This document shows positions 31,104 to 56,363 of a stretch of DNA of 64,000 nucleotides, piece by piece. The number at the start of each line of letters is the position of its first letter. Within the stretch, counting starts at the first letter, position 1. The stretch spans positions 124,001 to 188,000 of the forward strand of contig JAMPXB010000004.1 of assembly GCA_023701435.1 (NCBI GenBank). The letters run 5' to 3'. This stretch comes from Bacteriovoracaceae bacterium (lineage in GTDB: Bacteria > Bdellovibrionota > Bacteriovoracia > Bacteriovoracales > Bacteriovoracaceae). Below the pieces are notes generated by a model that saw nothing but the letters and a program-made list of their open reading frames with translations, was not told where the DNA came from and made no database searches. Made by a program: the position numbers and the translations under genes.

Positions 31104-31220
31104 AAAAAAATGACCATCCGGAGATGATCATTTTTAGTTCGTTTTCATTGTGCTGAGCTAGTTTCCTTTACTCTGCACAAGGCTACGAACCTAAAACTAG
31201 TCTAAGACTCCGAAGGTGAT
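31104..31220 (-). ncRNA. structured RNA element, copy A
   Basis: On the minus strand this sequence matches, almost without gaps, the element at 56193-56312. The visible fold has an outer stem (UUAG-G-UUCGU with ACGAACUAA), an inner stem UUGUGC/GCACAA around a loop holding AGUAAAGGAAAC, and a final hairpin AUGAUCAUC-uccg-GAUGGUCAU running into seven Us. A G-U pair in that hairpin becomes C-G in the other copy, so pairing holds on the minus strand. On the plus strand the same site would be an A-C mismatch. It lies between a decayed regulator gene and DUF1456. It is a candidate attenuator, riboswitch or small RNA of no family I recognise. Confidence 0.65.
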
Positions 31221-31274
31221 ATGGGAATCCTCTTGGATCCAAATTTTAGCGCAAGGAATATCTGAGTATGTCTT

Positions 31275-54685: not shown

Positions 54686-55012
54686 TTAACGAGGCGTTAC
54701 TTCCTGAGAAAAGAAACCATCATCTCCCCGCGCGACAATTTTATCCGAGTTCATATCGAGGACAGGTTTTAGGAAGATTTTGTTTTGAATGTCTTTAACA
54801 CCACCGATATGATCCAGTATGATTTCGGCCCTGCGTTTAGCGTGTCGGCTATCGACGCTGCCTTTAAGAGTAACTACTCCCTTATGAACAGAAACTTCGA
54901 TCTCTGAAGCATCGACATCGGGATCCCATTTTAAGAGTTCGCAAACTTCCTCTTTGATTGAATCATCAGATCGCTTATAACCTTTGGGACCTAGCCCTGA
55001 ATATGTTTCCAT
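54686..55012 (-). CDS. BON-domain protein
   Basis: A 108-residue protein with a single BON domain: SDDSIKEEVCELLKWDPDVD, IEVSVHKGVVTLKGSVDSRH, AKRRAEIILDHIGGVKDIQN. It has no signal peptide, unlike OsmY-type BON proteins, so it is probably cytosolic. BON domains bind phospholipid or membranes. The ATG at 55012 (METYSGLG) has GGAG six bases before it, and an ATG four codons upstream is less likely. It begins 15 bases after the aminotransferase stop codon on the same strand. Confidence 0.85.
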   Translation of the reverse strand: METYSGLGPKGYKRSDDSIKEEVCELLKWDPDVDASEIEVSVHKGVVTLKGSVDSRHAKRRAEIILDHIGGVKDIQNKIFLKPVLDMNSDKIVARGDDGFFSQEVTPR

Positions 55013-55026
55013 TGGCCTCTCCATAA

Positions 55027-56192: not shown

Positions 56193-56312
56193 AAAAAAAA
56201 TGACCATCCTAAGATGGTCATTTTCAGTTCGCTTTAACTTCTACTAAGCTTCGGTTTCCCTCACTTTGTTGAACGTTGCGAACCTAAGACAAGGTTAGGA
56301 CTTTGAAGATTA
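56193..56312 (-). ncRNA. structured RNA element, copy B
   Basis: This is a near gap-free match on the minus strand to the element at 31104-31220. It has the same outer stem (UUAG-G-UUCGC with GCGAACUGA), an inner stem AAC-G-UUC/GAAGUU, the loop sequence AGUGAGGGAAAC, and a perfect hairpin AUGACCAUC-uuag-GAUGGUCAU running into eight Us. It sits in the divergent gap between a plus-strand hydrolase gene and the minus-strand aminotransferase, so it must start from its own promoter; a TATAAT on the minus strand at 56348-56353 is a possible -10 box. The aminotransferase ribosome-binding site follows about 10 bases after the U-tract, the geometry of an attenuator or riboswitch. Confidence 0.7.
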
Positions 56313-56363
56313 TTCGTGAATTTTTTTATTCAAAATGTTGCCGCAAGATTATAGGCTGAGTAT

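Follow-up and report, generated by a model that had tools for sequence, protein, structure and literature searches.

The window analyzed here is the whole 64,000-nt stretch at positions 124,001 to 188,000 (forward strand) of contig JAMPXB010000004.1 from the Bacteriovoracaceae bacterium assembly GCA_023701435.1. It carries on its minus strand two copies, A and B, of an element that we read, with a probability of about 0.85, as belonging to a larger family of genes for stand-alone small RNAs (sRNAs), each gene having its own predicted promoter, a closed RNA fold and a terminator, and all apparently being activated together by one regulator. Comparison among related genomes establishes the predicted promoter, the fold, the terminator and a common upstream box. 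On this comparative evidence the sRNA gene family, which has a promoter architecture of its own and is absent from Rfam, appears to be genuine.

A first-pass annotation of the window had described an element of about 117-120 nt present in two copies (31104-31220 and 56193-56312). Both lie on the minus strand at these positions, and copy A as query finds copy B in its own genome (G000) at E=1.2e-13. The same query finds a third copy, C (G000:C17:200153-200246, E=2.1e-10), which shares contig and strand with B and lies 20 kb past it, and nine members in all, not two, were accepted in this genome. The 117 nt combine promoter and RNA: the RNA itself measures about 89-93 nt, positions 31193-31255 are promoter and box of copy A, and conservation extends further upstream to an ACTCAG block at about 31262-31267. 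What had looked like one element in two copies is more aptly described as a promoter plus an RNA, one of many apparently co-regulated sRNA genes of the genus. When the terminators were removed, the A and B cores aligned with a score of 20.5, far above the -1.8 ± 3.8 (maximum 12.5) of 1000 shuffles, so the likeness is not due to the terminator alone.

Members of the family and their distribution

Two covariance models were searched in related genomes: R1, built from A, B and C, and R2, built from 14 sequences including the upstream region. R2 matched at E<=0.01 in 23 of the 26 genomes of the genus (G012, G013 and G014 gave no match at this threshold), some of the matches being terminators only. 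From model and pattern matches we compiled 48 members in 21 of the 26 genomes. At least eight RNA types, about 80-140 nt in length and given names (t2, t3 etc.) coined for this analysis, have the box and the closed fold in common. The nine members in the genome of the window are A, B and C plus one each of t2, t3, t4, t6, t7 and t8; they were obtained from 12 R2 matches at E<=0.01 by leaving out two opposite-strand terminator echoes and C38:197392, a terminator behind an apparent coding gene. Among the 21 pattern matches listed, L062 and L069 were kept, the others being by eye coding or without a terminator. The cores of G003_t2 (terminator miscalled by the script) and G016x (none called) were delimited by hand, and three probable members stand outside the 48: G008 (L025, 99.2 bits), G005b (L016, 73.7 bits) and the t2 of G011. 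The search of relatives with a covariance model, proposed in the first-pass annotation, thus yielded both further copies and covarying stems.

The host genus (Bacteriovoracaceae) includes assembly UBA4096, one of three Bacteriovoracaceae records that carry the t3 core. No convincing copy was found with R2 outside the genus, in the 101 non-genus genomes among the 115 family genomes searched. R2 did match at E<=0.01 in 18 of the 101 (best 1.7e-5); the matches in six of these 18 genomes (G142, G061, G139, G095, G123 and G119) were inspected and rejected as, by eye, ordinary terminators, two of them adjoining tRNA-like sequence. A terminator resembling GGCCATC-UUCG-GATGGCC also lies behind an apparent ordinary gene at G000:C38:197392-197520 and in L048, L049 and L117; terminators of this kind seem also to serve ordinary genes, and terminator-only matches are therefore common in the genus.

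Upstream box and predicted promoter

The upstream box, in short form CTTnmG-n4-AATTyAGAATAAA, has the consensus tCTTnmGnnwAaATTyAGAATAAA (39 members with a box-to--10 distance of 50 or more). A TANNNT sequence precedes the closing stem of the RNA in the 48 members; 47 of them have one 38-41 or 50-51 bp from the start of the box, against 7.9 ± 2.6 (maximum 16) in 200 spacer shuffles. When a mild preference for 50 was applied in choosing the TANNNT, the distance was 50/51 bp in 38 members, 38-40 in nine and 53 in one; with the preference used for ties only, it was 50-51 in 36, 38-40 in nine and 53-54 in three. The two distance classes are about one helical turn apart. A TTC[AC]CA-like -35 element lies 17 bp before the -10 element (T at the first two positions in 36/48 and 32/48), and the predicted start has a pyrimidine at -1 in 46/48 and a purine at +1 in 45/48; neither the -35 sequence nor the -1/+1 bases played a part in the choice of members. 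The predicted promoter is sigma70-like. A stand-alone sRNA gene should have its own promoter at near-fixed spacing, and such a promoter was found in the -10 offset, the -35 element and the pyrimidine-purine start.

Two other interpretations of the upstream conservation were dropped: an RNA leader with its start close to AGAATAAA in the box, because TANNNT was seen at a near-fixed distance before the closing stem, and a sigma54 promoter in CTCAG...CTTGCG, rejected by eye since the spacing differs among members.

The same box, with TANNNT at offset 40, also precedes a short protein gene (MNNQPEQPIKENP...) in L072:1200-1523 (-) and L074 (from G011 and G003), so the regulon may include mRNAs. The gene in L072 is near BON-like (by eye) and DUF4142 genes.

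RNA fold and covariation

The 5' end of the RNA pairs with the bases just before the terminator, which follows directly after this closing stem. In the alignment of 14 sequences (A7), 97.9% of the cells in closing stem and terminator are paired and 10 of the 20 pairs are changed on both sides; sliding the partner by 1-3 columns lowers the pairing to 31-54%. In the 13-bp helix of the terminator 98.9% of the cells are paired, with double changes in six pairs. None of 500 shuffles, made without correction for kinship, was as good on four of five covariation measures. This covariation bears out the earlier view of a minus-strand structured RNA under selection for pairing, as do the two base changes on which that view had rested, U-A in A to C-G in B (alignment columns 27/74) and U-G to C-G in the terminator stem (columns 89/102); the hairpin plus U-tract of an intrinsic terminator is likewise seen at the end of both copies. 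The minus strands of A and B fold with z = -4.15 and -4.25 and the plus strands fold well too (z = -3.52 and -3.24), so that folding alone does not decide the strand. It is settled by the U-tract, the predicted promoter and the G-U pairs, which occupy 13 of 280 cells and would be A-C on the other strand.

In 47 of the 48 cores the first and the last 14 nt form 4 or more pairs with each other, where 11.7 such cores are expected (minimum free energy (MFE) folds compared with shuffles), and the mean fold z-score is -3.3. The types far from R2 (t2, t5, t7 and t8) have the closing stem too. Many of the RNAs carry a small apical module, defined as a loop of 3-6 nt on 2-4 bp above an internal loop with 2-4 nt on either side, which occurs in 23/48 members (4.9 expected). 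Its internal loops are without U and consist largely of purines (5' side, 49/55 bases; 3' side, 56/57, with 45 A); the apical loops are GAAA (11), GUAAAA (6), UAG (3) and GUGAAA, GCAA and GAGA (1 each).

Dispersed intergenic copies, with four accepted members (A, B, C and t6) on one contig and strand, might also suggest a non-autonomous mobile or palindromic repeat, of the kind of repetitive extragenic palindromes (REP) or miniature inverted-repeat transposable elements (MITE), that is transcribed by chance. We judge this origin, from placement and fold only, to be extremely unlikely in view of the near-fixed geometry of promoter and box, the compensatory changes, and the location of t2 behind a regulator gene at the orthologous place in five genomes.

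Downstream genes and the leader alternative

The elements could instead be 5' leaders (riboswitches or attenuators) that control the next gene through the terminator. A gene for a DUF1456 protein begins on the same strand 40 nt past the terminator of A, and one for an aminotransferase 22 nt past that of B; t3 in four genomes stands directly before a gene starting MF(F/S)..., and the t6 of the window's genome before a BON-domain gene. The consistent downstream genes that the first-pass annotation had suggested looking for were not found: by a crude open reading frame (ORF) call, 18/30 members are followed most closely by a same-strand ORF and 11/30 by a convergent one, and 1/30 has no ORF downstream. 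Copy C faces a convergent gene, and the genes downstream of A, B and C are unrelated, as the annotation had said of the neighbors of the two copies. These unrelated genes and the convergent ORFs disfavor a riboswitch. No tRNA and no Rfam family at its cut-off (Rfam 15) was found in the window, hence no riboswitch at gathering score, in agreement with the earlier statement that the element matched no riboswitch or sRNA class familiar to the annotator. Rfam searches at E up to 1 of 12 + 7 loci with members gave none at cut-off and four sub-threshold matches, two of which overlap a member: L20_leader (30.9 bits, cut-off 58.7), the one leader match among these 19 loci, and MIR5200 (27.7 bits, cut-off 70). 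No antiterminator was noticed, though no systematic search for antiterminators was made. We consider leaders unlikely and stand-alone RNAs the better reading of these sequences; read-through into some genes may occur, and may control those downstream of A and B.

Candidate regulator and proposed mechanism

The box of t2 reaches into the end of a response-regulator gene, or directly adjoins it, in G000, G003, G015 and G018, and by coordinates in G011. The protein of the window's genome has Response_reg and Trans_reg_C domains (domain scan of this genome only), and the regulators beside t2 in the other genomes are 56-77% identical to it. Because t2 directly follows its gene in five genomes, this OmpR/PhoB-type regulator is the first candidate, as a working hypothesis, for the activator that would act at the box. 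Of 27 offsets compared, the first seven bases of the box are most like the seven at offset 11, and 54 of 5000 column permutations were as good. The same period is found in the layout described for mycobacterial PhoP, in which 7-bp motifs are repeated directly with 4 bp between them (PMC4832192).

We infer that the RNAs are transcribed, that their activation is of the OmpR/PhoB type, and that they have a role in stress and a common protein partner. A winged-helix OmpR/PhoB-type response regulator would act from a single side of the DNA helix on the box with its putative 11-bp direct repeat and would switch the RNAs on together, perhaps under envelope stress. Less certainly, the RNAs would then act at least partly via a common RNA-binding partner other than Hfq, ProQ or CsrA, as suggested by the locking of both RNA ends in stems and by the recurrence of the U-free, purine-rich loop module in dissimilar types; particular junction or loop sequences may pair with mRNAs.

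Model searches detected Hfq in 0/26 and ProQ in 0/26 genomes of the genus (12 of them at least 90% complete), the control runs of the two models giving a response in 5 and 1, respectively, of 14 known genomes. The genome of the window encodes CsrA. Rsm RNAs typically come as several siblings under a box like that of a response regulator, and the t7 of the window's genome contains CAGGAUGA, so that the RNAs might be CsrA titrators like CsrB or RsmZ under the control of a response regulator. We regard this as very unlikely and rejected it on the counts in the 48 cores, where neither GGA (82, against 86.4 ± 6.1 in dinucleotide shuffles) nor ANGGA (20, against 29.8 ± 4.7) is enriched and 37/48 cores have 0-2 GGA. 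A bolder proposal, which we put forward tentatively and think somewhat doubtful, is that a clade without Hfq and ProQ has a regulon made up mainly of sRNAs, with at least eight sequence-distinct types, one activator box and closed folds, many of them with the apical module, which would bind a dedicated and so far unknown sRNA-binding protein.

Several points weigh against a co-activated sRNA family, in addition to the short distances from the terminators of A and B to the next genes. The 48 members and the register of their boxes were picked by eye from model and pattern matches, some of the boxes are weak and each orthologue was counted by itself, so that the counts lack independence. The count of paired ends is partly built in, since R2 rewards closing stem plus terminator. 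On the fifth covariation measure, further pair types, the alignment scored 16 compared with 16.8 in shuffles. The definition of the apical module was drawn up after the folds had been viewed, and copy A (a 2x1 version) and 24 other members fail it when it is applied strictly. The 11-bp repeat in the box is moderately supported. A close orthologue of the regulator (at least 56% identity) was found in 5/26 genomes and a match of any kind at E<=1e-30 in 12/26, compared with members in 21/26; most genomes with members lack the close orthologue, and the regulator therefore cannot be the sole activator unless it has diverged or been replaced.

Comparison with known sRNAs

Knowledge of bacterial sRNA regulons comes mostly from organisms with Hfq or ProQ. 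OmrA and OmrB are linked to OmpR, and the copies of LhrC are near-identical and pair by C-rich loops. The types of the present family, unlike LhrC, differ strongly in sequence and have purine-rich loops. Other sets of a few sRNAs with a common upstream activator site are the Qrr and Rsm RNAs, which the family resembles in this respect; the Qrr RNAs use sigma54 and Hfq, and the Rsm RNAs carry many GGA motifs, for which the present RNAs are not enriched. LhrC of Listeria monocytogenes, an sRNA present in several copies and connected with the two-component system LisRK (PMC4132741), offers a parallel in that several sibling sRNA genes are tied to one two-component system and to cell-envelope stress, the regulator being a presumed one in our case. 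A similar parallel is given by the homologous OmrA and OmrB of enterobacteria (PMC12692685, PMC4211561), sibling sRNAs linked to an OmpR-type regulator (here a candidate); these pair with mRNAs with the help of a chaperone, whereas neither Hfq nor ProQ was detected in the genus and both ends of its RNAs are in stems.

A limited literature search on small RNAs of Bacteriovorax and the Bdellovibrionota gave nothing on this family, the nearest being the attack-phase sRNAs of Bdellovibrio bacteriovorus (PMC3627812). Those are likewise intergenic sRNAs from the wider group of predatory bacteria, among them merRNA, which holds a cyclic di-GMP (c-di-GMP) riboswitch, and a FliA motif is given for 3/8 of them; they have a different promoter box and are set apart from our family by description, not by sequence. 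The family is of interest as a group of apparently co-regulated, closed-fold sRNAs in a genus with neither Hfq nor ProQ detected. Its recurring RNA module could serve to fish for an sRNA-binding protein, and its sequences offer a way into sRNA regulation in a family related to predatory bacteria whose members are mostly uncultured.

Positions in the window and other observations

Table 1. Predicted features of copies A and B (window coordinates; TSS, transcription start site)
Feature	Position	Strand	Basis or remark
Copy A sRNA gene, predicted transcript ~89 nt (closing stem, inner hairpin, terminator)	31104..31192 (TSS ~31192, end ~31104)	-	TSS 12 nt after start of -10 box
Copy A upstream box CTTGCG-n4-AATTTGGATCCAA (3' part off consensus)	31233..31255	-	consensus of 39 members
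Copy A -35 element TTCCCA	31222..31227	-	17 bp before -10 element
Copy A -10 element TAGACT	31199..31204	-	begins 51 bp from the start of the box
Copy A closing stem (31185-31191 paired to 31136-31142) around inner hairpin, GAAA loop	31136..31191	-	MFE fold; covariation, 14 sequences
Copy A intrinsic terminator hairpin, U-tract to ~31104	31107..31134	-	sequence, alignment, covariation
Copy B sRNA gene, predicted transcript ~93 nt	56193..56285	-	promoter, fold, terminator
Copy B upstream box CTTGCGGCAACATTTTGAATAAA	56325..56347	-	pattern search, 2 mismatches
Copy B -35 element TTCACG	56315..56320	-	17 bp before -10 element
Copy B -10 element TAACCT	56292..56297	-	begins 50 bp from the start of the box
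Copy B closing stem (56278-56284 paired to 56226-56232), inner hairpin bearing the apical module GGGAAACC	56226..56284	-	folds
Copy B intrinsic terminator hairpin, U-tract to ~56193	56196..56225	-	sequence, alignment, covariation

The t6 member (L121:978-2123 (-); C17:37562-37702 in the genome of the window) lies between two BON-domain genes, and copy B, too, has a BON gene nearby (window 54686-55024). The t3 core is almost unchanged in the four genomes where the MF(F/S)... gene directly follows it (L053:516-1382 (-), L034, L038 and L114); the product of this gene in the genome of the window has a PDZ-like stretch just under the Pfam cut-off, and the gene next to the t3 of G015 (L111) has a different start. 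The t8 and t7 RNAs are paired about 2.8 kb apart at L011:7132-10032 (+), similarly spaced R2 matches occur in G003 (C1:1416197 and 1418960) and G011 (C65), and the single-contig genome G015 has three member-like R2 matches within 2.7 kb (L113:1470-4165 (-)).
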